Under the pieces are notes generated by a model. The model worked only from the letters and a program-made list of their open reading frames with translations, was not told the origin of the DNA and made no database searches. A program made the translations under genes and the position numbers. This document shows, in pieces, positions 46,411 through 64,000 of a stretch of DNA of 64,000 nucleotides (position 1 is its first letter; each line of letters starts with the position of its first letter). This DNA is from Nocardia sp. NBC_00403 (lineage in GTDB: Bacteria > Actinomycetota > Actinomycetes > Mycobacteriales > Mycobacteriaceae). The DNA lies in the NCBI RefSeq assembly GCF_036046055.1, contig NZ_CP107939.1, positions 806,001-870,000 of the forward strand. The letters are read 5' to 3'.

Positions 46411-46419
46411 CCTCCGACT

Positions 46420-48174: not shown

Positions 48175-48455
48175 TGGCCCACCGTAGTAGTTTCGCAAAA
48201 CTCGCCGGGAAATCCGTAGCACGGCCCGCATGCGCGGCGATGCATGGATACGTTGGTATAACAATCTCCACGGACGGGGCATGGGTGAGTTCCACCGAAT
48301 ACGAGTCGGCCAGCGTGACCGGTGCTATTTCGAGCGACCTGCCAGCAGTCGCCACCGGAAATGCTGTTCCGAGCGACCTGCATGGTGCTGTGTCGAACGC
48401 AACGCCAGACACCGCCGAGCGGGCATACCTTCCGGTGTCATCGCAGAATAGGGGC

Positions 48456-49793
48456 ATGGCACACCCGGGTTTCACCCCGACACAGCTCGCGGCCCGCGCC
48501 GCCTATCTGCTGCGGGGCAATGATCTGGGCACTATGACGAGCGCGGCGCCGCGGCTGTACCCGCACATGTGGAGCTGGGATGCCGCGTTCGTCGCGGTCG
48601 GCCTCGCCCCGTTGAGCGTCGAGCGGGCGGTCATCGAGCTGGACACGCTGCTCTCGGCGCAGTGGAAGAACGGGATGATCCCGCACATCGTCTTCGCCAA
48701 CGGCGTCGACGGATACTTCCCCGGCCCGGCCCGGTGGGAATGCCGCAAGCTGGCCGCCAACGCGCCCGACGGCCCGGACACCTCCGGCATCACCCAGCCA
48801 CCGGTGCACGCCATCGCGGTGCAGCGGATCCTCGATCATTCGCGCAGGCACGGGCGCAGCACCAGGGCGGTGGCCGAGGAGTTCCTCAACCGTCGCTGGC
48901 CGGATCTGGTGCGCTGGCATCGCTGGATGGCACACGCCCGCGACCCCAAGGAAAGTGGCCGGATCACGCTGTACCACGGCTGGGAATCGGGCATGGACAA
49001 CTCGCCGCGCTGGGATCGGGCCTATCAGAACGTGGTCGTCGGCGACCTGCCGCCGTATCGACGCAAAGACGTGCTGGTGGTCGCCGACCGGTCGCAACGA
49101 CCGAGCGACCGCGAATACGACCGCTATCTATGGCTGGTCGAGCAGATGCGCCGAGCCGGATACGACGACTACCAGCTGTCCTCGACGATGAGCTTCGCGG
49201 TGGAAGACGTGTTCGTCACGGCGATCTTCGCGCTGGCCTGCGAGGTGCTCGCCCATATCGGCGAGGAGTACAAGCAGCCGAACGCCGATGTGCGTGACCT
49301 CTACACCTGGGCCGAGCGCTTCCGCGCCGGCGTTGTCGCGACCACCGACGCGCGCACCGGCGCGGCGCGGGACTTCGACGTCCGGCTGCAACGCTGGATC
49401 GGCACCGAGACGCTGTCGATGTTCGCACCGCTGCTGTGCGGCGGTCTGCCCCGCGACACCGAACGCAGCCTGCTGCGCCTATTCGAAGGCCCGCGCTTCT
49501 GCGGCCATCCCGACCTGCGCTACGCACTACCGCCGTCGACCTCGCCCGTCTCGAAGGACTTCCGCTCCCGCGAGTACTGGCGCGGTCCGGTCTGGCCGGT
49601 GATGAGCTGGCTGTTCTCCTGGGTCTTCGCCCGCCGCGGCTGGGCGGAACGCTCGTTCATGCTCCGCGCCGAAGGACTGCGCCAAGCCAGCGACGGCAGC
49701 TTCGCCGAGTACTACGAGCCGTTCACCGGCGAACCGCTCGGCAGCATGCAGCAGTCCTGGACAGCCGCCTCGGTTCTCGATTGGCTCGGCTGA
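48456..49793 (+). CDS. ggH: Glucosylglycerate hydrolase (GH63)
   Basis: 445 residues. The sequence LAARAAYLLRGNDLG, LYPHMWSWDAAFVAVGLAPL, and HGWESGMDNSPRWD is typical of mycobacterial glucosylglycerate hydrolase, which releases glucose and glycerate from glucosylglycerate, a compatible solute mobilised after nitrogen-starved growth (known from M. hassiacum). The (alpha/alpha)6 barrel is complete, ending EPLGSMQQSWTAASVLDWLG. ATG 48456 matches characterised relatives; an upstream in-frame extension is possible but looks non-coding. Confidence 0.9.
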   Translation: MAHPGFTPTQLAARAAYLLRGNDLGTMTSAAPRLYPHMWSWDAAFVAVGLAPLSVERAVIELDTLLSAQWKNGMIPHIVFANGVDGYFPGPARWECRKLAANAPDGPDTSGITQPPVHAIAVQRILDHSRRHGRSTRAVAEEFLNRRWPDLVRWHRWMAHARDPKESGRITLYHGWESGMDNSPRWDRAYQNVVVGDLPPYRRKDVLVVADRSQRPSDREYDRYLWLVEQMRRAGYDDYQLSSTMSFAVEDVFVTAIFALACEVLAHIGEEYKQPNADVRDLYTWAERFRAGVVATTDARTGAARDFDVRLQRWIGTETLSMFAPLLCGGLPRDTERSLLRLFEGPRFCGHPDLRYALPPSTSPVSKDFRSREYWRGPVWPVMSWLFSWVFARRGWAERSFMLRAEGLRQASDGSFAEYYEPFTGEPLGSMQQSWTAASVLDWLG

Positions 49794-49892
49794 CCCAACC
49801 GGACACCGTGAACAGCCCTCCGGTGAATGTTGCGCAAATGCATCATGCGCCACACTGGCCACATCAAGAGCTTGTCGCTATCGTCGAACAGC

Positions 49893-50639
49893 ATGGATAG
49901 CACTCGTTGGAGATCGACTCACGCTCTTGCGTTGTCCGCGATCGCTGTGGGCGGCATCCTCACCGCAACCATGCCGGGCACCGCGACGGCCGCACCGAGC
50001 GGACCGGATGTCTCGTCTTGGCAGCATCTCGACGGCCGGTTCATCGACTGGTTCGCGGTCCGACGCTCCGGCCACGACTTCGCGATGGTGAAGGCCACCG
50101 AGGGTCTGAACTACGTCAATCCGTACTTCATCCAGGACAGCTTGCTGATGCGCGCGGCAGGCGTCGCACGCGGGACCTACCACTATGCCCAGCCGAGCCT
50201 GCCGCCGCAATCACAGGCCGCGCTGTATGCGGCGACAGTGCTCGGACAGAATGGGCCGCTGGATCTGCCGCCGGTGCTCGACATGGAGAACGCGGGCGGC
50301 CTCGACCCGGCGCGGCTGATCAACTGGACCCGCCGCTACCTGGAAACCATCGAGCTGCTGACCGGCCGGACCCCGATCATCTACACCAATCCGAACTTCT
50401 GGAAGACCGCCATGGCGAACACCGATGAGTTCGTCCACTACCCGCTCTGGATCGCCGACTACCGCGGCAACGACCAACCCGAGGTGCCCGGCGGCTGGCC
50501 GACCTGGACGTTCTGGCAGACCACCGACCGCGGCAAAGTTCCCGGCATCGCGGGCGGCACCGATGTGAACGTATACAGCGGCGCCCAAGGCGATTTCGCC
50601 CGCTACGCGCACATCAGCGGCCTGCTCGGCAGCAGCTGA
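49893..50639 (+). CDS. Secreted GH25 lysozyme (N-acetylmuramidase)
   Basis: 248 residues. A Sec signal peptide covers about residues 1-34 (HALALSAIAVGGILTATMPG, then TATAAPSG). The GH25 domain starts with PDVSSWQHLDGRFIDWFAV and FAMVKATEGLNYVNPYF; the catalytic acid/base pair lies in VLDMEN, and the ending FWQTTDRGKVPGIAGGTDVN is typical. It cleaves peptidoglycan outside the membrane, with no extra wall-binding domain. ATG 49893 starts the signal peptide. Confidence 0.93.
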   Translation: MDSTRWRSTHALALSAIAVGGILTATMPGTATAAPSGPDVSSWQHLDGRFIDWFAVRRSGHDFAMVKATEGLNYVNPYFIQDSLLMRAAGVARGTYHYAQPSLPPQSQAALYAATVLGQNGPLDLPPVLDMENAGGLDPARLINWTRRYLETIELLTGRTPIIYTNPNFWKTAMANTDEFVHYPLWIADYRGNDQPEVPGGWPTWTFWQTTDRGKVPGIAGGTDVNVYSGAQGDFARYAHISGLLGSS

Positions 50640-50659
50640 GCGGCCGAGGCAGAAAAAGA

Positions 50660-50700
50660 CGAAACCGCTACTCCCTGCAGGATGAGTAGCGGTTTCGTTT
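50660..50700. terminator. Intrinsic terminator between GH25 and PhoX-like genes
   Basis: A perfect 13-bp stem (CGAAACCGCTACT and complement) with a 12-base loop, followed by TTT on the plus strand and preceded by AAAAAG, so it can work in both directions for the convergent genes. Confidence 0.9.
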
Positions 50701-50728
50701 CCTTCACAGCAGGTGGCCTGCCGATCGA

Positions 50729-52792
50729 TTAAACACCGATGCGGCCGCCGCCCTTCCTCCATACCACCGCGACCGAGGGCCGCGGCTGCTTGTCGCCGCC
50801 GTCGGGCCAGTGCGACAACGGGTTCTCGGGGGTCGCGTCGTCGGCCTCACCCGGATGCTGCACGCACACCATGACTCGCGATTCGGTGACGATCGGACCG
50901 CAGGTCTCGGCGCCGCGCGGCACCGTGAGGAATTGCTTGGTCTCACCGCGATTCGCACCGTCGAGCACCACGGAGAACAGACCGTCGTTCGACTTCAGCG
51001 CATTGCCGTCGGTGGAGATCCACAGGTTGCCGTAGGGGTCGAACGCGAGGTTGTCCGGGCAGGAGATCGGGCTGACCTTGGTCTTGTCGAAGCCGGCGAA
51101 GTAGGTGTCCGCCGCGGCGGGGTCTCCACAGACCAGCAGCAGCGACCAGGTGAACTTGGTCCCGGTGTGGTCGTCGTCGATTTCGAGGATCTGACCGTTC
51201 TTGTTCAGGTTGCGCGGGTTGGCCTCGTCGGGACCCTGCTTGCCTTCCTTGCCGCGGTTGTCGTTGTTGGTCAGCGCGACATACACCTTGCCGGTGTAGG
51301 GGTTGGCCTCGAAGTCCTCCGGGCGGTCCATCTTGGTGGCGCCGACCTTGTCGGCGGCCAGCCGGGTGAACACCGCGACCTCGGCCGCGCTCATGCCCTC
51401 GACGAGCGATTTGCCCTTACCGTCGGCACCCGTCTCCAGCAGCGGAAGCCACTCGCCGGTGCCGGTGAAGCCCTTGTCCGAAGGCACTGTGCCGTTGCCG
51501 TCGACCTTGTCCGGATGGTTGCCGGTCAGTTTGGCGACATACAGCGTGCCCGCGTCCAGAATGGTCAGGTTGTGGCGCCTGCTCGCCTGGCCGGTCCCCG
51601 ACTGGATCTTGCGCGAGGACACGAATTTGTACATATAGTCGAACTTTTCGTCGTCACCGGTATAGGAAACGACGTCGCCGTCCTTCGTGACATAAATGGT
51701 GGCGCCCTCGTGCTTGAGGCGGCCCATCGCACTGTGCTTGATCGGAGTGGAGGTGGGATCCCACGGGTCGACCTCGACGACATAGCCGAAACGGTTGGCC
51801 TCGTTGGGTTCCTGCGCGAGATCGAAGCGCTTGTCCGCACGCTCCCATTGGTTGGGGGTGCCGCCCTTGGTGAAACCGTATCGCTTGACCCGCGGCTTAT
51901 CCGCCGATTCCGACACCTTGTCACCGTTGGCGAAGTAGCCGTTGAAGTTCTCTTCGCCGGAAAGGACAGTGCCCCACGGGGTCACGCCACCGGAGCAGTT
52001 GGCGAAGGTGCCCAGCACCTTGGCGCCGGTCGGGTCGGCGGTGGTCGTGACGAACGCGCTGCCTGCGGCCGGACCGGTCAGCGTGAACTCGGTGGTCGCG
52101 GTGATGCGGCGGTTGTACTTGCCGAAGACCGGGGTCAGTTTGCCGGTGCCCGGCTCGCCCTTGACCTCGACCACGGACAAGCCGTGCGCGGCCATGGTGA
52201 CCGCGATCTGCGCGTCGGTCGGCGCCTCTTTGTTGTAGCCGCGGAACATGTGCGGGCCGGTGGTGTACTCGTGGTTGACCACAAGCAGATAGCTGTTGGC
52301 CTGGCCCTCGATCGGCAGCAACGCGGCGAAGTCATTGTTGTAGCCGAACTGTACGGCCTGCGCGGCAGCGGTCTGCTTCTCGAAGTCGAAGGCCGGCGCG
52401 TCGGCGAAGAGCGGGTCGCCCCAGCGGATCACCACGGACTGCTCGTAACCCTCGGGGATCACGATCGCGTCTTCCTTGTTCGGCGCGACGGCGGTGAAGC
52501 CGGTGCCGGTACCCACCGGGCCCGCCGGGGTATTGGTCGGGGTGACCGTGCCGGCCGCGGCGTCGTCGCCACAGGCCGCGAGCACACTGCCCGCACCGAC
52601 TGCCAGCACCGCCGCGGCGCCGCCCTTGATCAGCCCACGACGGTTCAGCGAGCTGACGATGTCACCGAAGTAGGCACCGCCGGAGGTGTTGGGCACCTCG
52701 TGGAAGCACGCGTTCGCGCATTTGTATTCACAGGTGACGGAAGCGCGCGACGACTGGCCGTCATGCTTCACGAAGAGGGCGAGAGGTTTCAC
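50729..52792 (-). CDS. PhoX-family alkaline phosphatase (DUF839), Tat-exported
   Basis: 687 residues. A Tat motif (SLNRRGLIKGGAAAVLAVGA) lies after about 48 residues, an unusually long n-region common in this family, followed by a Cys (VLAACGDD) that makes a Tat lipoprotein likely. The PhoX beta-propeller is recognised by YNNDFAALLPI, LVVNHEYTTGPHMF, GVTPWGTVLSGEENFNGYF and CPDNLAFDPYGNLWISTDG. PhoX is a Ca/Fe phosphatase; phosphate limitation may induce it. GTG 52792 is preceded by AGGAG. Confidence 0.92.
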   Translation of the reverse strand: MKPLALFVKHDGQSSRASVTCEYKCANACFHEVPNTSGGAYFGDIVSSLNRRGLIKGGAAAVLAVGAGSVLAACGDDAAAGTVTPTNTPAGPVGTGTGFTAVAPNKEDAIVIPEGYEQSVVIRWGDPLFADAPAFDFEKQTAAAQAVQFGYNNDFAALLPIEGQANSYLLVVNHEYTTGPHMFRGYNKEAPTDAQIAVTMAAHGLSVVEVKGEPGTGKLTPVFGKYNRRITATTEFTLTGPAAGSAFVTTTADPTGAKVLGTFANCSGGVTPWGTVLSGEENFNGYFANGDKVSESADKPRVKRYGFTKGGTPNQWERADKRFDLAQEPNEANRFGYVVEVDPWDPTSTPIKHSAMGRLKHEGATIYVTKDGDVVSYTGDDEKFDYMYKFVSSRKIQSGTGQASRRHNLTILDAGTLYVAKLTGNHPDKVDGNGTVPSDKGFTGTGEWLPLLETGADGKGKSLVEGMSAAEVAVFTRLAADKVGATKMDRPEDFEANPYTGKVYVALTNNDNRGKEGKQGPDEANPRNLNKNGQILEIDDDHTGTKFTWSLLLVCGDPAAADTYFAGFDKTKVSPISCPDNLAFDPYGNLWISTDGNALKSNDGLFSVVLDGANRGETKQFLTVPRGAETCGPIVTESRVMVCVQHPGEADDATPENPLSHWPDGGDKQPRPSVAVVWRKGGGRIGV

Positions 52793-52898
52793 GGCGACTC
52801 CTGGATTGGTCCGACGCGCGCACGGTAAACGCCGCAGGCTATTCCCAGGAAACGCTCAGATGAACGATCGACCAATTAGGTGACCCTCAGTACCGGCG

Positions 52899-52951
52899 AA
52901 AACACGAATGTCGCTCTCGCTCTCCGGAATGGAGCGACAGCGACATTCGTG
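52899..52951 (-). terminator. Intrinsic terminator of the membrane protein gene
   Basis: A perfect 13-bp stem (52903-52915 with 52939-52951) carries an internal secondary pairing and is followed on the minus strand by TTTT. It lies directly after the stop of the gene at 52958-53761 and separates it from the PhoX-like gene. Confidence 0.85.
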
Positions 52952-52957
52952 CTGCGT

Positions 52958-53761
52958 TCAGGCATTGACTTGCAGGGCGATCACGACCTCTTGTTCGTTC
53001 TCCGGCAGATAGTGGACCTGCAGGATGCGGCCGACCTGGACTCCGGCCACGCTCGCCGGTGGCAGGAATTTCTCGACTCGGGTGGCGAATGTTGTTCCGT
53101 CGGGCCGGGTCACGACGAGCCCGAGTTCGATTTTGGAGTGGCCGTTGCGGATTTCGCCCGGCACGGCGAGCGATTGCACCACCGCCTGCGCCATGATGCC
53201 GCGGGCGGCGATATCGAGTTTGCCCTTGGTGGTGAACCCCTTTCGGATCATGGACTCGTTCATCGCCTGCTGCGCAGCCGAGGTGTCCCCCGAGCGATCC
53301 ACCTCGACCTTGTCGGTTCGACCCGGCAGATAACGCACCGGCAGCACGACGCCGGGCTGCAGCAGCGCGAGTTCGGTGAGCGGGACGATCAGCTTCGCCG
53401 CGGAATCGAAGATCTTGCCGTCGACGCCCTCGACGCTGAACTCGATGCGCACCTGCGGCTGATCGTTGACGCTCAGCCCGGTCTGCCGAAACGACTTGAC
53501 GGTGCCGATCCCGACGAGACCGTTGCGGAACGAGGAGCTGTTGCCCCCGGTGAACGCCTCCAGAATGCCTTCGCCGGTGAACGCGAAAACGAGCGGGACA
53601 ACGGTGAGCGCGATGATCGGCAGCGCCATGTGGGGACCGACCCAGGCGAGCATGCCGTCGTCGTACGTCCCGGAGGGGACATAGGTCAGGCCGTGCCAGA
53701 GATAGAAGCCGACGGAGAAGATGCCGAATGCGGCGGCGAGCGAGCGGGCGATGGTTTTCAT
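52958..53761 (-). CDS. Membrane-anchored conserved hypothetical protein
   Basis: 267 residues from ATG 53761 (GAAGG upstream). Two hydrophobic helices at residues 3-30 and 42-65 are followed by a soluble domain of about 190 residues, which seems to be two related beta-rich halves (VNDQPQVRIEFSVEGVDG and NGHSKIELGLVVTRPDG). I do not recognise a named family. It sits between PhoX-like and LpqH-like envelope genes on the same strand; a role at the cell surface is an inference only. Confidence 0.75.
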   Translation of the reverse strand: MKTIARSLAAAFGIFSVGFYLWHGLTYVPSGTYDDGMLAWVGPHMALPIIALTVVPLVFAFTGEGILEAFTGGNSSSFRNGLVGIGTVKSFRQTGLSVNDQPQVRIEFSVEGVDGKIFDSAAKLIVPLTELALLQPGVVLPVRYLPGRTDKVEVDRSGDTSAAQQAMNESMIRKGFTTKGKLDIAARGIMAQAVVQSLAVPGEIRNGHSKIELGLVVTRPDGTTFATRVEKFLPPASVAGVQVGRILQVHYLPENEQEVVIALQVNA

Positions 53762-53898
53762 GATGTGCCTTCGGTGGGTAAGCGGGTGTGTGGATGACCC
53801 GTCGGTCCGCGCACGCCCGGGCCGCCCCGCCACCCCTCGCAATGACGGGGCGGCGGCGGACGTGCCGGGCATGAGCGGAGTCGGCGTCTGGTCGCGGA

Positions 53899-54444
53899 TC
53901 AGCCGCCGACGACCGTCGAGCAGGCGAAGGTGATGTCGAATTTCGCCGTCGTAGGGCCCGCGAGCGGGTTGCTCATGTCGGGGCCGCCGACGCCCTCACC
54001 GGTGATCTTGTAGGTGTTGCCGTCCTTGACGAGCTTGGCCGAGCCGCCCGGCATGCCGTTGCCGAAGCCCAGCGCGTAGGGCAGACCGTTGGAGCCACCC
54101 TTGCTGCCCGCGATCGCCACCGCGTCCACGGTGTCGGTGCCGGAGATGGAGGCGCTGACGCCGAGGGTGCCGTAGGTCGCGTTGTTGGTGTCGTTGAGCG
54201 AGAGGGCCAGCGTGCCGCCCTGCTTGGCGCAGATGGTTTCGAACTTCCCTTCGAGCGCCTTGCCGTCCACCGCGGCCACCGACTTGCCCGCTGCCGGACC
54301 GGACGGCGCCGCGGAGGTGGCCGGCTTGGCCGAAGCGGCGGCGGGCGAGGTGCTCGCGTCGTCGCTGCAACCTGTGACGAACAGGGCGAGCGTGGCGGCG
54401 GCGGTAAGAGCGGCGGCGGAGATGCGAACCGGCTTGGTGTTCAT
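53899..54444 (-). CDS. LpqH-family (19 kDa antigen-like) lipoprotein
   Basis: 181 residues. The signal peptide ends in the lipobox FVTGCSDD, so the mature protein is lipid-anchored. A Ser/Ala/Pro-rich linker precedes the LpqH domain with ICAKQGGTLALSLND and a final FDITFACSTVVGG, whose two Cys probably form the family disulfide. Mycobacterial LpqH is a TLR2-active surface lipoprotein; the role here is likely envelope-related. Divergent from the CHAT operon. Confidence 0.85.
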   Translation of the reverse strand: MNTKPVRISAAALTAAATLALFVTGCSDDASTSPAAASAKPATSAAPSGPAAGKSVAAVDGKALEGKFETICAKQGGTLALSLNDTNNATYGTLGVSASISGTDTVDAVAIAGSKGGSNGLPYALGFGNGMPGGSAKLVKDGNTYKITGEGVGGPDMSNPLAGPTTAKFDITFACSTVVGG

Positions 54445-54572
54445 GATTTCGTTCCTTTGCTTCGTCCGGCCCCGGTGTGGAGCCGATACGAGAAAGGTAG
54501 GAACCGGTCGCGCCCTACCGATCCCAGGTTTTCCGGTGTCTGAAATGGTCGATATTCCGATAACCTGGTCGA

Positions 54573-55943
54573 ATGCGACGGCCGCGCGCGATGGTGCTGG
54601 ACGAGGTTTGGCGCCGCCTCGACGGTGTCGAGCCCCTCAGTGGGCCGCACGGCGGGCCACTGCGCCGCACCGTCAAACTCATTCTCGATCCATTGGTGAT
54701 CCGCCCCGTCCAGAACCCGCTCTGCGCGGGCTCGATACTCACCGCGGACGGCGCGACCCTGCTCGCCACACGCATGCACGCCGCCGCGGATGTACTGCGC
54801 GCGACCGCGTCGTGGTTCACGCTGCTCAAACAGGTCCGGCGCGCGCTGCGAATCACCGAAGGCAATCCACAGGATCTATATTTCCAACGCTGCTTCGAGC
54901 TCGCGACGACGACAGGCGCACCGGATCCACTGCGGGACAGAGCAATTGCCGAAGCCGCGCTACGTGATATCCACGAATTCACCGCCGGGCGGACAACACA
55001 GGCACTCAAGGAGCACCTCACCGACGGCACACACATCGGCGCGCTCGGCGCGCTGATCGATGTCGCATGGCAGCGACGGCCGCTGGGTGCGCCGACGGGT
55101 GATCACAGCCTCGTGGTGCGCTCGCTGCTGGACGCGTGCGCGGCCGCCCGACTCGGACAGGCACCGCACAATGGACACAAGGAGTTCGCCCGCCTGCTCG
55201 CCACCCATGCGGGCACACACGGGGGAATTCGGCTCTGGGACAACGTATCCACACCGACCGCCCACGAGCTGGGGCTCACCGCGCGTCCCGCGCCACAGCC
55301 ACCCGAGCTCGGCACCTCGGCCTCGACGGCCAACCTCGGCCTGCCATTCGACCGCACCATCTATGAGCGCGTCTTCACCGTGCTGCAAGCCTCCAGCGAA
55401 CGTGCCGAGCTGCCGCCGATTCCGGAGCTGGTGACGACCGAAATCGCCCGCAGTTGTGCGCCGTGGGCGCTACTCGACGAGTCGCTGCGCGTCGCGGCGA
55501 GCGCGGGAATCGCACTCGCGCAAGGGTTGAGCCCCATTGCGACGGTCGCGCGGCTGCCACGTCATGGTCAGGTCGTCAGTGCGTCGCACGATGCGGAGAC
55601 GACGGCGCATCGCGTGATCAACAGCCGCTGGCAGCGGGAGGCGTATGTCCTGCAGGCGCGGCGGCTCGCGGTGAGTGCCGACCACTCCGCGACCATTGGA
55701 CCGCTGGCCGCCATCGCCGCCGAACTGCGCACGCCATGGCGGCCCTACCTCCGGCGACTGTGGGTTCGCCTGCACGGCCGCGATGTCAGGGAGTTCGGCA
55801 TCTACGAGCCCGACGAGCTGTGGGATCTGCTCGATGGGGTCGCTCGCTCCGTCATGCTCGATCACCGGATGCGGGTCAAGCAAGCATTGAGCGCGAGTTC
55901 CCTTGCCCAGGAGCCGGACCCAGCGGAATCGAGGGCGAGCTGA
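54573..55943 (+). CDS. Unknown protein, first gene of CHAT/TPR operon
   Basis: 456 residues with no recognised domain. It is soluble and basic-to-neutral, mostly helical, with many Arg and His. There is no signal peptide or membrane helix, and no obvious enzyme motif. The sequence around residues 115-170 (TGAPDPLRDRAIAEAALRDI) and the end (YEPDELWDLLDGVARSVMLD) are the best conserved-looking parts. It overlaps the next gene by one base. In an operon ending with a CHAT protease it could be a substrate, sensor or effector; this is inference. Confidence 0.75.
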   Translation: MRRPRAMVLDEVWRRLDGVEPLSGPHGGPLRRTVKLILDPLVIRPVQNPLCAGSILTADGATLLATRMHAAADVLRATASWFTLLKQVRRALRITEGNPQDLYFQRCFELATTTGAPDPLRDRAIAEAALRDIHEFTAGRTTQALKEHLTDGTHIGALGALIDVAWQRRPLGAPTGDHSLVVRSLLDACAAARLGQAPHNGHKEFARLLATHAGTHGGIRLWDNVSTPTAHELGLTARPAPQPPELGTSASTANLGLPFDRTIYERVFTVLQASSERAELPPIPELVTTEIARSCAPWALLDESLRVAASAGIALAQGLSPIATVARLPRHGQVVSASHDAETTAHRVINSRWQREAYVLQARRLAVSADHSATIGPLAAIAAELRTPWRPYLRRLWVRLHGRDVREFGIYEPDELWDLLDGVARSVMLDHRMRVKQALSASSLAQEPDPAESRAS

Positions 55944-56962
55944 TGACCGGGACCGTGACCATCCGCCGGGCCGAGGGCGGCCTGTGGATCATCGCGCCCG
56001 AGGGTGCACCGACCGTGCTGGACGATGCGGCGGATGTCGACATCGTGGTGCTCGAAGTATTGGGCGGGCACCTCACCTGGAGTCTGGCTTCCGGACAACC
56101 GATTCCGGCCGCGGTCATCGAGGACATGACGCTTGCGCACGAGTGGATATGGGCCGTGTACGGCGCAGCCATCGCGCTTGCCGTCGACGAATTGGACAGT
56201 GACACCACCGAACTCACGGTGCAGCCGGCGCTCCCTCGGCTCGCCGCGAACGTATGGCGGCTGGGATACGCACACTGGGCGGCGCGGTGGTGGCCGGCCT
56301 CGACCATCGACGGCATCGCACCACTCGACGAACGGCTGCTCGACCAGGAAATCGCCGCCCTGCGAGAGGAATGCGAATTGATTGTCGACGACGATGCCGA
56401 GCCGGTGTCGAGCGAGGACATGTCGACGTTCGATATCCCCTCTCGCGCGGAGGACTACGCGTTGGCGGCGGGCTCCGCCTCCGGAACGTCGGCAAACGCG
56501 CTCGTCCTCGCGCGTGGCAGCGGTGGCTGGGATTGGCACCGCTGCCCACCCGGGCTCATCGATGCCTCCGAGCATGCGGTGTCCTGGCAGGTGTCCCGGT
56601 CTCCCGGCACGACGACCATCGGGGTGGAGGTGGTTGCCGCGCCCCGCGTGGCCGCCGATATTCCGGCGCACCTGCATCCGCGCGCGCTGATCGCCGTTGC
56701 CGCGGAAACGGTCGAGACCGAGCTGAACCTCGTCGGCGATACCTGGACCGGACAGGCGAGCACGTCCTCGGAGGCGGTGTCGTCGGTGGAGCTCTATGTG
56801 CCCGGCGTCGGCACGCCCGGCCTCGGGGACCCGGGTGTCCGCCAGCAGGTGCGCGACATCGCCGCAGCACGACTGCGGCGTGCGTCAGCCGACGACGACG
56901 CAGCCTTCGACGCGCCATTGCTTGCCGAAATTGCCGCCGCCGCTTCGGAATCGGACTTCTGA
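55943..56962 (+). CDS. Unknown protein, second gene of CHAT/TPR operon
   Basis: 339 residues from ATG 55943 (TGATG junction with the previous stop). It is acidic, and the N-terminal 130 residues contain several Trp (LTWSLASGQ, HEWIWAVYG, HWAARWWPAS). The C-terminal half looks like a beta-sandwich (WQVSRSPGTTTIGVEVVAA, then LNLVGDTWTGQASTSS). No signal peptide, no membrane segment, no named family. One base separates it from the TPR gene. It does not show the N-terminal Cys or length of bacterial gasdermins. Confidence 0.78.
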   Translation: MTGTVTIRRAEGGLWIIAPEGAPTVLDDAADVDIVVLEVLGGHLTWSLASGQPIPAAVIEDMTLAHEWIWAVYGAAIALAVDELDSDTTELTVQPALPRLAANVWRLGYAHWAARWWPASTIDGIAPLDERLLDQEIAALREECELIVDDDAEPVSSEDMSTFDIPSRAEDYALAAGSASGTSANALVLARGSGGWDWHRCPPGLIDASEHAVSWQVSRSPGTTTIGVEVVAAPRVAADIPAHLHPRALIAVAAETVETELNLVGDTWTGQASTSSEAVSSVELYVPGVGTPGLGDPGVRQQVRDIAAARLRRASADDDAAFDAPLLAEIAAAASESDF

Positions 56963-56963
56963 C

Positions 56964-58541
56964 ATGGCCGAAGGCGCGGACGACGGAAGCATGCTGCTTG
57001 CGGAAGGTGCGGCGGCCTACAGCCGCGGCGAGGTTGCCGAAGCGCTGCGCCTGTTCGAAAATATCGCGGCCACCAGCACCGCAGGTCTGCGGGTGAGCGC
57101 ACTGGTCAATGCCGCGAGCATGCGCGATGAGATCGGCGATCACGCGGGGGCGGTAGTCATGTTTCGCGAGGCGCTGGATGAGATGCCCGCGGATGCCATC
57201 GAGAAACGCCCCGCCGCACTGGTCAATCTGTCCCAAGCGTTGCAACATGTCGGCGACCTCGACGGAGCGCAGCAGGCTTTGGAGCAGGCGCGGACGATAC
57301 TCACCGAGCACAACAACGAGACTCACCTGCACGTGGCCTGCCTGGTGTCGTTGACCGCCGTCGCCTTTCATCGCCAGGACTGGGCGTACGCGATCGAGCT
57401 GGCCACCGAATCACTCGACGCAGCAGTGTGTTTCGCGCCCTACCTGGCGGGACATCCGCTGTCGACCCTCGGCGGCATCTACTTCGAAACCGGCCGCCGC
57501 GAGCTCGCGCTCGACTTCGCGCAGCAGGCGCTCGCCGCATTCGACACCGCGGGCGACCACAATGCGGTCGCCGAGACCGAACAGAATCTGGCCATCATGT
57601 ACGTCAGGCTGGACCGCTTCGACGAGGCGGAACAACCGCTGCAGTCCAGCCAGGAGTACTTCGAGCAGGCCGAGCTCGGGTATCGGGCCGGCGTCGGCCT
57701 CAAGACCATGGGATTTCTCGCCGAGGGCCGTGGCGACGCCGATCGGGCCTACGAGCTGTACGGCCGCAGCCTGGCCTACTTCCGTGCATCAGGAGCGGCA
57801 CTGGACGCGGCCGATGTCCAGGCGCGCCTGGCGACCGTGGACTACAAGACCGGTCGATTCGATGCGGGCGAGGCACTGCTGGCCGCGGCTTTCACCGCGT
57901 ACGCCGAGCGCGGCCTCGGATTGCAGTGCGCGCAACTCGACTTCTGGCACGCGGCGCTGCTGGAGATGGTGCTCGAGCAGTCCGAGACTCCCGATCCCGA
58001 GCTGCTCTCCCGGGCAGTCGATCTGGCCATTTCTTCCGCGCTCGCCATCGATGCCGTGCGCCATACGCTCCCGAACGGCAATCAGCGTGAGCAATGGAAC
58101 CGCCGAATCGCCGACCCGGCGATGCGCATGGCCTTCCGGTTCGCCTACCTGTCGGGCAATGGCCCCCTGCTGGTAGATCTCATCGAAACACAATGCGCTG
58201 GTACGGCATTGCCGGCGACTGCACCCGCACCCGACACCGAACACGTAGCCACAAAACAACTTCCACTCGAACTGCTCGATCCGCAGGAAGCCGCGGACGA
58301 ACCGCCTCCTGCACCGCAACTCGGTATGCCGATGCAACTGGGCACGGGCCGACAATCCGGCGGTGCCCCACAGCTCGCAACGGCATTGGCCGCGGTCGCG
58401 GCGAGTGCGGGACTGCCGGTTGCGCCACCGCCGCGCCTGGCCGTCGCCCCCGACGGACATATCGCGCTCGCCGCCTACATCACCGCCGCTGAACAGCGCT
58501 ACGGTCGGCCGGTTCGGGACAGTCGGGTGCTGCCCGCATGA
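56964..58541 (+). CDS. Tetratricopeptide-repeat protein of the CHAT operon
   Basis: 525 residues. About ten TPR units span residues 8-330 (for example EGAAAYSRGEVAEALRLFEN, ALVNLSQALQHVGDLDGAQQ and TLGGIYFETGRRELALDFAQ). A Pro-rich segment at 410-470 leads to a short C-terminal helix (HIALAAYITAAEQRYGR). TPR arrays beside CHAT proteases commonly hold or gate the protease, as with TPR-CHAT in type III-E CRISPR systems and NLR-like proteins (family knowledge). Overlaps the CHAT gene by four bases. Confidence 0.88.
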   Translation: MAEGADDGSMLLAEGAAAYSRGEVAEALRLFENIAATSTAGLRVSALVNAASMRDEIGDHAGAVVMFREALDEMPADAIEKRPAALVNLSQALQHVGDLDGAQQALEQARTILTEHNNETHLHVACLVSLTAVAFHRQDWAYAIELATESLDAAVCFAPYLAGHPLSTLGGIYFETGRRELALDFAQQALAAFDTAGDHNAVAETEQNLAIMYVRLDRFDEAEQPLQSSQEYFEQAELGYRAGVGLKTMGFLAEGRGDADRAYELYGRSLAYFRASGAALDAADVQARLATVDYKTGRFDAGEALLAAAFTAYAERGLGLQCAQLDFWHAALLEMVLEQSETPDPELLSRAVDLAISSALAIDAVRHTLPNGNQREQWNRRIADPAMRMAFRFAYLSGNGPLLVDLIETQCAGTALPATAPAPDTEHVATKQLPLELLDPQEAADEPPPAPQLGMPMQLGTGRQSGGAPQLATALAAVAASAGLPVAPPPRLAVAPDGHIALAAYITAAEQRYGRPVRDSRVLPA

Positions 58542-59806
58542 CAAACCCACCGGAGCAACCGACGGTCATCGTGCGCATGGCCGATGCCGGCGATCTCTAC
58601 ATGTCATGGCGCTGGATCGGGAATGTCCACAGCCAGGGCGCGAGCATGCTGCCCGAAGCGGCGATCACCGATGCGGTGCGAAGGTTGGCGGCTGCCCTGC
58701 CCAACCCTGCCGAGCCGGACGCACTCGAACGCGCCATAACGACCGGGGCTTTCGCCGCGCATGACTCGGAATGTCTTGTCGCGCAAGCTCTTTCACGGGC
58801 GCTGCTGCCCTACGGACTGGCCGTCCAGTTGTACGACCTGTACACGCGGGGGATACGTCCGCATATACGGCTGCAGCCGTCGCCGCGGTTGGCCCAGGTG
58901 CCCTGGGAGATCATCGCTCCGGACCCCGCGCTGCGCCTCGTCGATATCGCGGACGTCAGCCTGCTCGCCCCGGCCGGCATCGTGCACAGTCGAGGACGCA
59001 CGGCCCGAGCCTGGCACGACACGCGGGAACAGCCCGTGGTGGCGGTACTAGATCCGCGCATTCCGGGATACCGCGCCGATTCCATCCTCGGATCGGTGCT
59101 CGGCCGGATGGACGCCGATACTCCGGTCGCTCGCCGCTTCGCCGAATACCACACGCTCGGCCGCCTCCTGCCCGCCGTCGAGGACGCGATCGAAGCATTT
59201 CGCCGCACCGATGTCGACCGCGATTGGCTCGGAAAAGCCTTGCGAGAAGGCGCAAGTCGATTGGTCTACGTGGGTCACGTCACCGCGGCCGCACCCGAAT
59301 CCGGCCAAAGCGAAGACGCCGAACTACATTTGTCCTGCACCGCCGACACCGTCGGCTTCGCCGCACCCACCCGCGCACACCGCCCGCTCTCGGCCAAAGA
59401 CCTACTGCTCGGCACCCACACCCTCACCCAGGATCCCGTCGACGGACCGCAACTCTGGCCGATCCCGAGCCGCGTCGCCCTCATCGCCTGCGAAAGCGGC
59501 GGCGATATGCGCTTCAGCGAAGCACTCGGCCTCGTTGCCGCCATGATCAACGGCGGCGCCGAACTGGTTACCGCCAGCAGATGGCCCCTCCCCACAGATC
59601 TCGCCTTCCAACGCCTGGCAGGCGCACCCCCCGAGGCCCACCCGCTACAGGACGCCATCTGCGCCATCGATGCCGCCCACGAACACCCCGACCCGACAAC
59701 CGCCCTCGCCGACTGGCAACGAGCCCGCCTCACCCAATGGCGCACCGACCGATCCATCGAACACTCCCCCATACTCTGGGCGGCCTTCGCCACCGTCAGC
59801 ACCTGA
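58538..59806 (+). CDS. CHAT-domain caspase-like protease
   Basis: 422 residues. The C-terminal CHAT domain begins about residue 110; the catalytic dyad is His247 in LVYVGHVTAA and Cys318 in VALIACESGGDM, each in the expected strand-end position, and GAELVTASRWPLPTD follows as in active CHAT enzymes. The N-terminal 100 residues are a family-specific domain with a Trp-rich start (YMSWRWIGN). It should be a cysteine endopeptidase acting in the cytosol. It is the last gene of a four-gene coupled operon. Confidence 0.92.
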   Translation: MTNPPEQPTVIVRMADAGDLYMSWRWIGNVHSQGASMLPEAAITDAVRRLAAALPNPAEPDALERAITTGAFAAHDSECLVAQALSRALLPYGLAVQLYDLYTRGIRPHIRLQPSPRLAQVPWEIIAPDPALRLVDIADVSLLAPAGIVHSRGRTARAWHDTREQPVVAVLDPRIPGYRADSILGSVLGRMDADTPVARRFAEYHTLGRLLPAVEDAIEAFRRTDVDRDWLGKALREGASRLVYVGHVTAAAPESGQSEDAELHLSCTADTVGFAAPTRAHRPLSAKDLLLGTHTLTQDPVDGPQLWPIPSRVALIACESGGDMRFSEALGLVAAMINGGAELVTASRWPLPTDLAFQRLAGAPPEAHPLQDAICAIDAAHEHPDPTTALADWQRARLTQWRTDRSIEHSPILWAAFATVST

Positions 59807-59843
59807 GCGCCACCATGCGGAGATCCCGAGCCGCCGACCCCTG

Positions 59844-60077
59844 TCAGCGATAGGCGTCGGAGCGTTCGGCGACGGTGAAGACCGTCAGGACCTGCTCCTT
59901 GTCGTCGATCTCGTACACGATGCGGTACTGCCCGATGCGGATTCGCCAGTCCTGACTCCCGACAAGCTTTTTCGAGCCGGTCGGTCGCGGATCCTTGGTC
60001 AGCGCGATGATCGCGCGCAACGCGACCTCGAGTACGTCACGAGGCAGCTTCTGCAGTTGTTTCAGGACGTCGGGATC
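59844..60077 (-). pseudogene. RelE-type toxin lacking its N terminus
   Basis: 77 codons translate to a RelE/ParE-type toxin from the first helix onward: VLKQLQKLPRDVLEVALRAI, GSKKLVGSQDWRIRIGQYRI, VYEIDDKEQVLTVFTVAERS and a final Asp-Ala-Tyr-Arg. The first strand with its start codon is absent, and no ATG, GTG or TTG occurs in frame before the region merges with the end of the alpha/beta-hydrolase gene. No antitoxin gene is adjacent. A broken remnant is most likely; expression through coupling from the hydrolase is possible. Confidence 0.7.
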
Positions 60078-60916
60078 TAGGCGCGGTGGGTGAGGAGGTG
60101 TTCCATGATCAGGCGGGTCAGGGCTTCGGGGGCTTGTTCGGGGATCCAGTGGGAGACGTCTTCGAGCATTTCGAAGCGGTAGGGGCCGGTGACGTGGCGT
60201 TCGGTGGCCATGGCGGCGGTGGAGCCGATGGTGCTGTCCTCGGTGCTCCACACGTAGAGAGTCGGGACTGCCACGGCATCGGTCGGGGCCGCGAGATGCA
60301 TGGCCCGGTACCAATTCAGGGCCGCGGTCAGGGCATCGGGCTGGGTAAGGCGGTGGACGTAGTCGTCGATCCGCTCTTCGGGAATCTTCCATTCGAAGAT
60401 CTGGCGGAGTGCGGCCGCATCGTCGGCGAGCAGCACGCGCTCGGCAACCCGGGGTCGGCGCAGCAGCGCGAAGTAATTGGAGCGTTGAGCCTGGTCTTCG
60501 TCCTCGGTGAGCGCGCGAAGGAAGGCGGCAGGGTGCGGTAGCGACACCGCGGTCCAGGTGCGAATTCGCTCGGGCATGGCTGCCGCGGCGGCCCAGCCCA
60601 CATAGGCACCCCAGTCGTGGCCGACCAGATCGAATCGCTGCCAGCCGAGCTCGTCGGCGATGGCGACGACATCGCCCACCAATTCCTCGACTCGGTAGTC
60701 TGCGACGTGTTCGGGACGCGCACCGGGGGAATAGCCACGCTGATCAGGGGCGACAACGTGGCAGCCGCCGTTGCCGAGTGCGTCGATCTGGAACTCCCAC
60801 TCGATGGCGGCTTCCGGAAAACCGTGCAGGAGCATGACTTCGCGACCACCGGGTTCCCCGCAGGCCAGCGCATCGAAGGTGCCCGCCGCGGTGGGAATCT
60901 TGATTGCCTCGATCAC
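60077..60916 (-). CDS. Alpha/beta-hydrolase, epoxide-hydrolase-like
   Basis: 279 residues. The oxyanion motif is LLHGFPEAAIEW, the nucleophile elbow is VGHDWGAYVGW with Asp as nucleophile, and the catalytic His is in EDVSHWIPEQAP. Asp in the elbow and the HGFP motif fit epoxide hydrolases, or less likely dehalogenases. The cap domain lies at about residues 130-215. The start is probably GTG 60916 (VIEAIKIP); an ATG at 60991 adds sequence without family likeness. Confidence 0.9.
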   Translation of the reverse strand: MIEAIKIPTAAGTFDALACGEPGGREVMLLHGFPEAAIEWEFQIDALGNGGCHVVAPDQRGYSPGARPEHVADYRVEELVGDVVAIADELGWQRFDLVGHDWGAYVGWAAAAAMPERIRTWTAVSLPHPAAFLRALTEDEDQAQRSNYFALLRRPRVAERVLLADDAAALRQIFEWKIPEERIDDYVHRLTQPDALTAALNWYRAMHLAAPTDAVAVPTLYVWSTEDSTIGSTAAMATERHVTGPYRFEMLEDVSHWIPEQAPEALTRLIMEHLLTHRA

Positions 60917-61048
60917 CCCGTCGACTCTAGAGGCCGACCCCGACAGCGCCACAGGGCCGCGCCAGAACCCCGGAAACGACGAACGCGGCATCGGCGGGAA
61001 GCCGATACCGCGTGGGTCGATGGTGGTTGTCGTCGTGGTGAGTTCGGG

Positions 61049-61474
61049 TCACTTATTGCGGCGCAGTCCGAGGTACTGCAGAGCGGCGAACCCGCCGACG
61101 GTGGCGGCTTGCATGACCGTCCAGACACCTCCGATCGTGTTGACCTCGAGTGCGCCTTCGATCAGGGCGGCGAGGCTGATGACGGCCCAGGCGACGTTCC
61201 CCGTGATGACGGTTCGAACCAGGCCGGTGTTGATGGCGGCGGGTGTGCTGATGAGGGCGACGGCGATGCCGTAGAGGGTCAGGAAGATCCCGATCGGGAT
61301 CCCGATGCGGGTGTCGAGGCCGAGCAGGGTTTCCAGTGGTCCGGACAGGGCGAGGTAGGCCAGGCCGTTGACGCCGGTGATGACGGCGTCCAGTCGCAGC
61401 GAAGTACGCAGCAGTTTCGGTCCGGGTGCGAGCAGGGTGTTCAGGTAGGACGATGCGGCGGTGGTGGTAGTCAT
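61049..61474 (-). CDS. Small four-helix membrane protein
   Basis: 141 residues with four hydrophobic segments (AVITGVNGLAYLALSGPLET, IPIGIFLTLYGIAVALISTP, GNVAWAVISLAALIEGALEV and VMQAATVGGFAALQYLGL). It recalls actinobacterial membrane proteins of unknown role found beside NTF2-like and regulator genes. ATG 61474 is preceded by AAGGA at a rather long distance. It may share a transcript with the NTF2-like gene 330 bases upstream. Confidence 0.75.
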   Translation of the reverse strand: MTTTTAASSYLNTLLAPGPKLLRTSLRLDAVITGVNGLAYLALSGPLETLLGLDTRIGIPIGIFLTLYGIAVALISTPAAINTGLVRTVITGNVAWAVISLAALIEGALEVNTIGGVWTVMQAATVGGFAALQYLGLRRNK

Positions 61475-61806
61475 GATCGTGGGTTTCCTTCTGGTGGAAT
61501 GGTTTTGGGGGCGGGGGTCGTGCGAGTGGCACATCGTGGAGTGAGGTTGTGGGTGTTTGCCTCGGCGATGTGCCACTCGCGGGCGGCCCGGTAGGGTTCG
61601 GGCTGCGGCGGGGTGGGTGGTGTCCGGCGGGATTCGGGCCGGGCTCGGCTGTGCCGGGCAGGTTCGGGTTGGTGGCCGGCCCTTATCCGCAGGACAGGGA
61701 CCAATTAATGGCGCTGTCGGCCGGAGTCCGACAGTCGGCTCCGGCCCGGATTCCGGTGGGTGGATATCCGTCCACGCCGGGCTGGGTTTCGGACTCTGCC
61801 GCGGTT
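61475..61806. other. GC-rich intergenic region with a long inverted repeat
   Basis: About 330 bases without a supported gene. It holds the 15-bp inverted repeat at 61522-61580 and several GGACTC/GAGTCC-like motifs. It separates two minus-strand genes and must contain the ribosome-binding site, and perhaps a promoter, of the membrane protein gene. Confidence 0.5.
61522..61580. repeat. Perfect 15-bp inverted repeat with 29-base loop
   Basis: GCGAGTGGCACATCG (61522-61536) is exactly complementary to 61566-61580. On the minus strand it lies 48 bases before the membrane protein start. It may be a terminator for upstream transcription, an RNA regulatory hairpin, or a double regulator site. Confidence 0.65.
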
Positions 61807-62163
61807 TCAGACTCCGGCGGGGACTTTGTCGAGGAAGCCCAGGACCTGGGTGATGCGGTTGTTGTCGATGACTGCGACGTCGAAGCCGACGACGACGGCG
61901 GGGCCGTCGGCGGGGCCGAGGTTCCAGGTGAAGCGGACCTGGTTGTGGTGGGCGTCGACGGGGCCTGCGAGGGTGAAGACCCAGTCGGGGAATTGGGCTT
62001 GCACGCCGGCGATGGCGGCGTCGAGTTCGTGGTGGCCGGACACGGTGACCAGGGGGTCGGTGTAGGTGGCGGTTTCGGTGAAGACGCGGGCTATCGCGGC
62101 GGTGCGGGCGGTGGGGTCGGTGGTGTTCCAGGCTTCGAGGTACTGGGTGACGATGGTGTTCAT
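61807..62163 (-). CDS. SnoaL/NTF2-like fold protein
   Basis: 118 residues. The cone-shaped NTF2-like fold is indicated by YLEAWNTTDPTARTAAIARV, YTDPLVTVSGHHELDAAI and FTWNLGPADGPAVVVGFDVA. Such proteins may isomerise or bind small molecules; no catalytic role can be assigned. Followed after 330 bases by a small membrane protein gene on the same strand. Confidence 0.88.
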   Translation of the reverse strand: MNTIVTQYLEAWNTTDPTARTAAIARVFTETATYTDPLVTVSGHHELDAAIAGVQAQFPDWVFTLAGPVDAHHNQVRFTWNLGPADGPAVVVGFDVAVIDNNRITQVLGFLDKVPAGV

Positions 62164-62298
62164 GATGGCCTCCGAAAGGGCTTGTGGTCTGCGGTTTCTC
62201 GGTGTCCGTGCTGGACGAGAACTACGTTATGACCTGGCCGTGGGGTGGCGAATCAGTCGTCTATAAGTACTTTCGGCAGCGGGGCTACCTACATCGGG

Positions 62299-62796
62299 TC
62301 ACAGCCTCCGCACCATCTCGAATTCCAGGCGCGGATCGCCTTCCGCGATCGGACCGTGCACGCCGGTTCGGACGAACCCGTGTCGCAGGTAGAGCCGTTC
62401 GGCCGCGGTGTTGCCGTCCGACACCTCTAGCCAGACCGCCCGATATCCCGCCTCGGCGGCCCACGCGATGACCGCGCGCACGAGCAGACCCGAAACCCCG
62501 GTGCCGCGCGCTTCAGGAGCAACCCACATCGAAATCAGATGGGCGCCATCGCGTTCCACGTCGTCGAGACCGCCGACCGTGCCGATGTCCACACCGTCCG
62601 CACTCGCGAGGAACTGCGCGCGCTGCGCCAGCGAGCTGCGCCAATCCTGTTCCGTCCGAGCCTGCGCCCACACCAGCGTCGACCCGAACGCCGACGGCGC
62701 GTCGGCCAATGCCCGCAACCGGATGTCTCGAAACCCCGCCCAATCTTCGGCCGTCAGACGCCGGATCCCCACTTCCCCCAATGCGATCCCCTCCAT
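62299..62796 (-). CDS. GNAT-family N-acetyltransferase
   Basis: 165 residues. The acetyl-CoA-binding motif is MWVAPEARGTGVSGLLVRAV, with the preceding DGAHLISM strand and the C-terminal NTAAERLYLRHGFVRTG. These define a complete GNAT of the RimI/PhnO-like type that acetylates an amine of unknown identity. ATG 62796 is the start; a GTG eight codons later would also give a full domain. Confidence 0.92.
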   Translation of the reverse strand: MEGIALGEVGIRRLTAEDWAGFRDIRLRALADAPSAFGSTLVWAQARTEQDWRSSLAQRAQFLASADGVDIGTVGGLDDVERDGAHLISMWVAPEARGTGVSGLLVRAVIAWAAEAGYRAVWLEVSDGNTAAERLYLRHGFVRTGVHGPIAEGDPRLEFEMVRRL

Positions 62797-62895
62797 CGAG
62801 TGGCATCAGGCCACAACAACCGTGCCGAGTGCCCTGTTGTACCACTCGAAAAGTAACCCATCGCCGCACCCGAAGGCACGGCGATTCAACGGGTT

Positions 62896-63192
62896 TCAGT
62901 GTTCGTCGTAATGACCGTCGTGGGCGGCGTGACGGTGACCGTCGTGCAGGTAGTCGACATGGTCGCCGTGCTGGACCGCGTCGTGGCCGCAGCCTTCGCC
63001 GTGCACGTGATCGTGGGCGGCGCACTCCGTGTGGCCTGCGGGCTCGCATTCGTCCCAGTGGCCCTCGTGCCGGCGGTGCAGGTGGCCGTCGTGGGCATAG
63101 TCCACGTGGTCACCGTGCGCGACCTCGGCGTGGCCACATCCCGGGCCGTGCACGTGCTCGTGTTCGGTGTGCTGCCGGTGTGCGGTGGTCAT
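62896..63192 (-). CDS. Histidine-rich duplicated metal-binding protein
   Basis: 98 residues, 26 of them His. Two 36-residue repeats at residues 13-48 and 62-97 share the pattern HVHGxGCGH, then HGDHVDYxHDGHxH and GHxDE. The many His plus Cys19, 49, 57 and 68 indicate a zinc, nickel or cobalt buffer or chaperone. There is no signal peptide or membrane helix. GGAAGGAAG precedes ATG 63192. I could not identify a clear Zur or Nur box upstream. Confidence 0.85.
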   Translation of the reverse strand: MTTAHRQHTEHEHVHGPGCGHAEVAHGDHVDYAHDGHLHRRHEGHWDECEPAGHTECAAHDHVHGEGCGHDAVQHGDHVDYLHDGHRHAAHDGHYDEH

Positions 63193-63302
63193 CAGACTTC
63201 CTTCCCGATAGCTGGACAGGTGGAGTCGATTGTGCCGAACACATTAGCAGGTGCGCATCTATACAGTTTGCTCAGGGTGTGCCACAGGTCACACCGACCG
63301 GA

Positions 63303-64000
63303 TCACAGCACCTGGGAGAGGAAACGCTGCAGGCGTGGGGTCTGAGGGTCGTCGAACAGCGACTGCGGGGTGCCGATCTCGACGACCTGACCGGCGTCCA
63401 TGAACACCACGCTATCGGAAACACTACGAGCGAAACCCATTTCGTGAGTCACCACGATCATCGACATACCGCCCGAGGCCAGGTCGGACATAACCGCGAG
63501 GATGCCCTTGACCAGCTCGGGGTCCAACGCCGAGGTCGCCTCGTCGAAGAACATGATCTCCGGCTTCATGGCGAGCGCGCGGGCGATAGCCACCCGCTGC
63601 TGCTGGCCACCGGAGAGGTTCGACGGACGTGAATCGGCCTTTTCGGCCAGCCCGACAACCTGCAGCTGTTCGATAGCCAGCGCCCGCGCCTCGTCCTTGG
63701 ACAGCCCGCGCAGCTTGCGCGGGCCGAGGGCGACATTGTCGGCGACCGTCTTGTGCGGGAAGAGGTTGAAGTGCTGGAACACCATGCCGATGCGCTGGCG
63801 CAGCCGGTCGGGGTCCTCGGTCAGCACCGACTTCCCGTCCAGCAGCACGTCGCCCTGATCCGGCTCGTGCAGCCGGTTGAGCACCCGCAACAAGGTCGAC
63901 TTGCCGGAGCCGGACGGGCCGATGACGGTGGTGGTCTTGCCCGCGTCGACATGCACGTTGATACCGCGCAGCACATGGTTGCGCCCGAGCGTCAGATGCA
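63303..64000 (-). CDS. Amino-acid ABC transporter ATPase (GlnQ-like), partial
   Basis: The visible 232 codons lack only the first few residues; the start lies beyond the window edge (the frame stays open to 64000). Walker A GPSGSGKS, LSGGQQQRVAIARALA signature, Walker B IMFFDEATSALDPE and the switch His in VVTHEMGFARSVSD are intact. The overall sequence is of the polar amino acid (glutamine/glutamate, HisP/GlnQ) importer type. Permease and binding-protein genes are expected upstream, outside the window. Confidence 0.93.
   Translation of the reverse strand, partial: HLTLGRNHVLRGINVHVDAGKTTTVIGPSGSGKSTLLRVLNRLHEPDQGDVLLDGKSVLTEDPDRLRQRIGMVFQHFNLFPHKTVADNVALGPRKLRGLSKDEARALAIEQLQVVGLAEKADSRPSNLSGGQQQRVAIARALAMKPEIMFFDEATSALDPELVKGILAVMSDLASGGMSMIVVTHEMGFARSVSDSVVFMDAGQVVEIGTPQSLFDDPQTPRLQRFLSQVL

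Follow-up and report, generated by a model that had tools for sequence, protein, structure and literature searches.

Background

What does a caspase-like peptidase do when it is encoded together with a repeat protein and two proteins of no recognised family? The question is raised by a 64,000-nucleotide stretch of Nocardia sp. NBC_00403 (contig NZ_CP107939.1, positions 806,001 to 870,000; hereafter the window, with positions counted from its first letter), which belongs to a genome of 8.7 Mb in a single contig whose nearest named homologues are from Nocardia. Four adjoining genes on its forward strand, here called A, B, C and D, encode two proteins without a recognised family (A and B), a tetratricopeptide repeat (TPR) protein (C) and a CHAT peptidase (D). 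In bacteria, relatives of caspases are mostly known as parts of immunity and suicide systems. The original prediction, which was made from the sequence letters, proposed for this operon a defence or stress-response system, with a role in envelope or development signalling as an equally open alternative. Our comparison favours a signalling module not characterised before over a phage-defence cassette of the usual kind. The reading we favour, with a probability of about 0.4, is that a TPR-scaffolded CHAT protease signals by cutting A or B and is tied to the cell envelope in the Nocardia and Mycobacterium family.

Results

The junctions are a 1-base overlap between A and B, a 1-base gap between B and C and a 4-base overlap between C and D, and the coordinates of the open reading frames (ORFs) agree here with what had been predicted. 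Against Nocardia vinacea (locus L003), the ratio of computed nonsynonymous to synonymous substitution (dN/dS) is about 0.17 for A, 0.26 for B, 0.14 for C and 0.19 for D; judged by these ratios, all four genes are under purifying selection, which argues that they are not chance ORFs.

D was used to scan GTDB contigs, and 47 loci resulted (44 from Nocardia, 2 from Streptomyces and 1 from Actinacidiphila), of which 46 hold all four genes. B, C and D are found in 47/47 and A in 46/47; the locus without A (L023) begins inside B at a contig edge, and another (L009) is cut inside A. Automatic placement of the starts gives an overlap of 1 or 4 bases between A and B at 44 of 46 loci and one of 4 bases between C and D at 28 of 47. 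We also examined 394 genomes of the class Actinomycetes; the best four candidates per genome were scored, so absences in this sample are less sure than presences. D matched 40 of these genomes, and 35 were kept after five weak matches (E 2e-5 to 4e-4; G015, G168, G228, G294 and G358) had been dropped, while A matched 34. Both genes occur in 33 genomes; in 32 they share a contig and lie within about 5 kb, and in G075 they are on two contigs. D stands without A in G018, where it is a fragment of 187 amino acids (aa), and in G239, where a remote A takes the place; A stands without D in G124, as a 51-residue match containing a stop. Thus 33 of the 36 genomes with A or a non-weak D have both, and the conserved co-occurrence that the original prediction proposed to look for is found. 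It had also named the case that would speak against a system, namely that homologous CHAT genes mostly occur without the other three; for this family of D they do not.

When 20 of the class loci were searched with profiles for the four genes, 17 held them all. Of the remaining loci, L116, which starts at a contig edge, gave C and D, and L129 is a D fragment; in L128 (genome G239) B, C and D were found, C being on the opposite strand, and profile comparison identifies the ORF that replaces A as a remote A (94%, E 1.4e-7). The genes occur in two main orders: A-B-C-D, and C-D-A-B in six loci of one genus (g2), called Mycobacterium-like below because one A of this type (P0326) bears the name Mycobacterium sp. 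The linkage of A to D persists through this change of order. On these comparisons we regard A to D as a real conserved unit.

In 296 genomes sampled across the phylum, strong matches are confined to the class Actinomycetes, with one weak match outside it (G656, E 4e-5). Within the genus of the window D is present in 84 of 98 genomes, mostly in one copy. Elsewhere, five Streptomyces megaplasmids carry A and D, and among the eight genomes listed for genus g27 (presumably Streptomyces) only G018 has a strong D, the fragment already mentioned. Homologues of A also occur in Rhodococcus, and B is present in records of R. opacus and R. jostii.

The set of G239 has surroundings of its own (L128:962-13514): it adjoins an ORF that combines FtsK/SpoIIIE with FHA, and its C has an N-terminal Ser/Thr kinase domain. 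The ORF after B in the same locus looks NYN-like by eye and has no Pfam match.

As had been predicted, C is a TPR array (Pfam TPR_12, E 4.3e-22) and D an intact CHAT protein (PF12770, 39.8 bits against a curated cut-off of 24). The putative catalytic residues of D are His247 and Cys318, which we take to be the catalytic pair on the strength of their motifs. Both are invariant in 23/23 close D sequences and in 22/22 of a wider alignment, the window's own D being counted in each and L128 belonging to the wider set; because of this invariance D is most likely an active peptidase. Identity to the window's D is 63-79% in 20 of 22 aligned near relatives and 52-53% in the other two. In five loci (L049, L112, L115, L120 and L127) C and D form one open frame, and for that reason the two probably work as one module. 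A comparison of the D profile with PDB chains gave none above chance (best E 0.36, a cupin).

Another CHAT gene lies elsewhere in the same genome, in locus L001 (G000:C1:3365800-3366624), with an open frame of 1182 aa; the D profile does not list it.

A and B, by these searches, are families without a known relative and absent from Pfam, and the earlier statement that they match no family stands. Neither finds a Pfam family at E<=1; none of the four proteins A to D matches a PADLOC model at E<=1; and the sole NCBIfam match, of A, lies far below its cut-off (11 against 343 bits). Divergent members give the same picture: among 20 of A the commonest Pfam match is a weak one to DpnD-PcfM (2/20, best E 0.2), and among 20 of B a weak one to DUF7939 (3/20, best E 0.028). 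No credible PDB relative of A, B, D or E (see below) was found by sequence, and by sequence comparison alone A and B have no match to gasdermin. A few homologues of A (P0054, P0073 and P0304) bear the name lantibiotic dehydratase in one source; this identity was rejected for A, none of the 20 members having such a Pfam match.

Just upstream of A, on the other strand, lie two genes that the original prediction had passed over: one for a lipoprotein of the mycobacterial 19 kDa family and one, called E, for a membrane protein. The lipoprotein profile matches at 40 of the 44 Nocardia loci (contig-edge loci counted) and at 6/6 Mycobacterium-like loci, where the gene stands upstream of C on the same strand. 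Genomes G000, G031 and G361 have one lipoprotein copy each, at the locus, and G107, which is without D, has none. Mycobacterium-like genomes with A and D have 3-8 copies, one of which precedes D by 1.6-1.9 kb on the same strand in 20/20; in the six loci examined C fills this gap. Among the 98 genomes of the window's own genus, the lipoprotein and D are both present in 83 and both absent in 13. The two discordant genomes are G445 (1340 contigs, D partly a fragment), which has D only, and G454, which has only the lipoprotein, as a match with an in-frame stop. In 76 of the 83 the two genes are on one contig, the lipoprotein gene being upstream and divergent in 76/76, and in 7 they are on different contigs.

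The stop in G454 is a TAG within G454:C40:17958-18281, as if the gene were decaying after the loss of A to D.

A gyrB tree of 30 genomes (the 14 without D and 16 chosen with it) indicates that the absences of D do not form a single clade (p-AU 0.002) and require six changes or more. In a tree of 40 lipoproteins (of 46 rows chosen, 6 were not recovered, among them 5 paralogues, and four rows are duplicates), the copies linked to the locus in both genera form one group apart from the sampled paralogues, with support 84/95 and a long-branch warning. In the literature covered by our search, part of it seen incompletely, no paper was found that joins the 19 kDa lipoprotein family to a CHAT protease.

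These data bear on an explanation in which the unit regulates growth, sporulation or antibiotic production in filamentous actinobacteria, and the lipoprotein and E are inherited neighbours at a divergent promoter region with no functional tie to it. The confinement of strong matches to Actinomycetes agrees with this, as do the predominance of Streptomyces among the 120 best listed relatives of A and the Streptomyces-type loci, which have no lipoprotein match. However, the lipoprotein linkage persists in the second gene order, its presence and absence agree with those of D in 96 of 98 genomes, and Nocardia and Mycobacterium do not sporulate in the manner of Streptomyces. We regard this explanation as distinctly unlikely.

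E is found, by its profile, in 36 of the 44 Nocardia loci and also in L037, L111, L114, L115 and L120, as well as in L122, L124, L125 and L126. It is divergent from A in both gene orders wherever found. The listed ORF of E begins further upstream, at 53872, and a shorter start was chosen after the homologues; Pfam gives no family above cut-off. A shorter family, c47 (its model made from L045, L049 and L127), occupies the place of E in those loci and also in L112 and L113. The motifs of the two are alike by eye; the profile comparison gives a probability of 3.2%, and in L112 the E profile gives a partial match (E 3e-10) on the frame that c47 also matches. Membrane segments are not predicted in A to D, and among the six products a hydrophobic segment occurs in the lipoprotein and E alone.

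One could also suppose a housekeeping role in processing or quality control, in which a single envelope protein, be it the lipoprotein, E or one without linkage to the locus, is matured by D, with A and B serving as chaperones or adaptors rather than carrying a signal. The co-occurrence of the lipoprotein with D and the hydrophobic segments just mentioned are what one would expect then. Yet D has neither a signal nor a membrane segment, whereas the lipoprotein is presumably exported, and the lipoprotein was not found at Streptomyces-type loci; such a role seems very improbable to us.

The features of the region are collected in Table 1.

Table 1. Features of the locus and its surroundings, in window positions
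Feature	Positions	Strand	Description
GH25 glycosyl hydrolase	49827-50636		upstream of gene E
PhoX alkaline phosphatase	50732-52792		upstream of gene E
Gene E	52958-53761 (start approximate)	-	about 267 aa; N-terminal hydrophobic stretch; repeated domain with TG-x-x-VNDQP motif by eye
Myco_19_kDa (LpqH-like) lipoprotein	53899-54444	-	181 aa; divergent from A; PF05481, E 2.6e-22, 79.8 bits against 23; lipobox VTGC by eye
TAACCT, -10-like box	54561-54566	+	conserved; 6 nt before the ATG of A; putative leaderless start
Gene A	54573-55943	+	456 aa; no membrane segment; no known family; conserved core including NPQDLYFQRCFELAT and RLHGRDVR
Gene B	55943-56962	+	339 aa; no membrane segment; no known family; conserved blocks HWAARWWPAS and YALAAG
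Gene C	56964-58541	+	525 aa; TPR protein
Gene D	58538-59806	+	422 aa; CHAT (caspase-like) peptidase, Pfam PF12770
D His247 codon	59276-59278	+	putative catalytic His within YVGHV; invariant
D Cys318 codon	59489-59491	+	putative catalytic Cys within IACESGG; invariant
ORF just downstream of D	59847-60392	-	ParE-toxin match (PF05016, E 6e-8)
Alpha/beta hydrolase	60080-60991		weak PADLOC match

In 43 of the 47 rows compared, one for the window and 46 for loci, a TANNNT box, which we take to be a pattern of actinobacterial -10 sites, precedes the ATG of A by 5-8 nt. Four rows are without it: L009 is at a contig edge, and in L028, L037 and L045 the start was placed by script inside the gene. This conservation supports the start of A at 54573 and a leaderless mRNA. 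A generic sigma-70 promoter scan of the region found no site.

A second, distant type of D is present in 10 of the 98 genomes of the window's genus (E 1e-87 to 1e-94), and three Rhodococcus plasmids carry a distant D, 36-43% identical, without detectable A. In eight of these loci (six of the ten genomic and two of the three plasmid ones) we found A and B in 0/8 and a C-type TPR protein in 5/8; another family, with frames of 484-652 aa, precedes the distant D in 7/8. This family is not a hidden A or B, as its profile comparison with either gives at most 0.3% probability and the profiles of A and B match in 0/8 loci. Because the distant D has other partners in place of A and B, this kind of CHAT protein is combined with at least two sets of partners. 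The statement on CHAT genes and their companions thus holds for the family of the window's D and not for this paralogue, which occurs without detectable A and B.

The plasmid loci L144:5371-14536 and L145:1-13495 hold such a second-type CHAT-TPR set, with different partners, likewise unknown, and with genes that carry an NYN-domain annotation; the Pfam NYN match in L144 is just below cut-off (21.1 against 24.2 bits). A small ORF near a second-type D and C (L148:12145-12462) has a stretch that resembles the domain of E and c47 by eye and has no Pfam match.

Discussion

The main rival is anti-phage defence or abortive infection: A or B would sense infection, and D, activated on C, would cut a pore-former, an inhibitor or a housekeeping protein, with death or growth arrest as the result. 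A TPR-CHAT protease, Csx29, does act in CRISPR-linked immunity (PMC10028731). A conjugative plasmid of Rhodococcus carries a related paralogue of D, with a gene of NYN-domain annotation in its vicinity, the five Streptomyces megaplasmids hold both A and D, and the patchy distribution outside the family (A in 34 of 394 class genomes; a strong D, as a fragment, in one of the eight listed g27 genomes) would suit such a system as well. Against it, besides the lack of PADLOC matches for A to D, the same models on six neighbours and four proteins of related loci gave one weak match (the alpha/beta hydrolase of Table 1, E 0.002). D has no match in 50,697 phage records, where A was not searched, and no direct repeats of the CRISPR kind were found in the stretch 44000-64000. 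In its own genus D is a mostly single-copy gene of most genomes, linked to one lipoprotein gene, and near-relative D sequences are as similar as stated above. The prevalence in the genus, the lasting linkage, the purifying selection and the absence of PADLOC and phage matches argue together against a mobile defence cassette. We therefore find the defence role proposed originally not supported and consider it unlikely, with an appreciable chance left to it; the envelope or development alternative fits better, and the neighbour genes that point to it were missed by the original prediction.

The signalling reading starts from what is observed: the four-gene unit, the intact dyad, the fusion of C and D in relatives, the linkage to the lipoprotein and often to E, and the purifying selection. 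We presume that A, B, C and D would form one cytoplasmic complex in which the TPR protein C keeps the peptidase D latent. An input from the cell envelope or the growth state would activate D, which would then cut A or B, or a protein held by them, and the cut product would carry the signal; A and B would be the regulator and the substrate of D. The functional neighbourhood may also include the surface lipoprotein and E in Nocardia and the Mycobacterium-like genus, as the likeliest source or target of the signal. The complex, its activator and envelope input, the cleavage and its substrate, the output and the phenotype are proposed here with the help of the analogy to Csx29.

It is tempting to go further and suggest a pathway of normal physiology in Nocardia, Rhodococcus and Mycobacterium relatives, in which a dedicated lipoprotein of the 19 kDa family, together with E, passes on the state of the cell surface and a TPR-CHAT protease in the cytoplasm responds by cleaving A or B. 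We put this forward tentatively, as it is doubtful. If true, it would give this lipoprotein subfamily a pathway and provide a non-immune use of a bacterial caspase relative.

Several observations weigh against the signalling reading, in particular against its envelope part. At the other loci (L037, L045, L049, L112-L120, L127 and L128) the lipoprotein profile has no match, and the envelope link may thus be limited to a single family. The distance from the lipoprotein gene to the unit in the 76 own-genus genomes is within 6 kb in 68 and 6-20 kb in 8, and the genes between the lipoprotein and A in three distant loci are ordinary and mixed, with no pattern by eye. Related genomes are not independent, which weakens the co-occurrence within the genus as a statistic; the gyrB tree offers two independent pairs on supported branches, too few for a test. 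E is less constant than the lipoprotein: its profile has no match in 8 of the 44 Nocardia loci (L009 and L023 being at a contig edge) or in L121 and L123, and at the level of whole genomes 12 of 20 Mycobacterium-like ones have it at the locus and 8 do not, and G031 lacks it. E-type matches also occur away from the locus, strong in G360 on a contig other than that of A to D and weak in many genomes. Finally, the patchiness of the set outside its own family counts against a core role there.

The strong match in G360 consists of two tandem E-type matches (G360:C19:17641-19082).

We believe that a CHAT unit that most genomes of a genus have, that includes two families outside Pfam and that is linked to a lipoprotein gene of a well-known immunogenic family, is a place to ask whether caspase-like proteins serve ordinary signalling.

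Comparison with known systems

In a literature search that covered few subscription papers, and some sources in part, no description of this gene set was found; a published account may have escaped it. The CATRA conflict system (Pfam CATRA-C, PF20270) is similar in having a TPR part. PMC8195603 describes it as ternary and caspase-dependent. Membership was rejected: the profiles of A to D match nothing at E<=1 in seven CATRA-C loci, and the profile comparison gives a probability of 0.6% for A and 0.3% for B. Pfam finds no CATRA match in A or B, and the window's genome has no CATRA-C match, CATRA-N not having been searched genome-wide.

The two-gene EACC1-caspase system (Kaur et al. 2020) likewise places a caspase-family peptidase in a conserved gene set, mostly in multicellular prokaryotes; its EACC1 partner has a transmembrane (TM) helix, and variable domains are fused to the caspase (PMC7159879). 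Unlike it, A to D are without a TM segment, and the 22 aligned D sequences showed no variable domain added to them. E does have a TM segment but no Pfam family above cut-off, and the EACC1 profile itself was not compared.

An analogy is offered by Craspase, or CASP (Cas7-11, the TPR-CHAT protein Csx29 and the substrate Csx30), in which target RNA activates the TPR-CHAT protease and the latter cuts a sigma-factor inhibitor (PMC10028731). In both cases TPR is joined to a CHAT peptidase and the partner genes adjoin. The differences are that in the window TPR and CHAT are separate genes, which become one frame in five relatives, that A and B match no Pfam family, and that the D profile has no PDB match above chance. 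Nor was a Cas7-11 gene or a CRISPR array found beside the set, as judged from the Pfam search of A and B and the repeat search of 44000-64000; the rest of the genome was not searched.

As to the mycobacterial 19 kDa lipoproteins (LpqH, PF05481), the divergent neighbour of A is a member of that family, whereas the copies linked to the locus form a group of their own within it.

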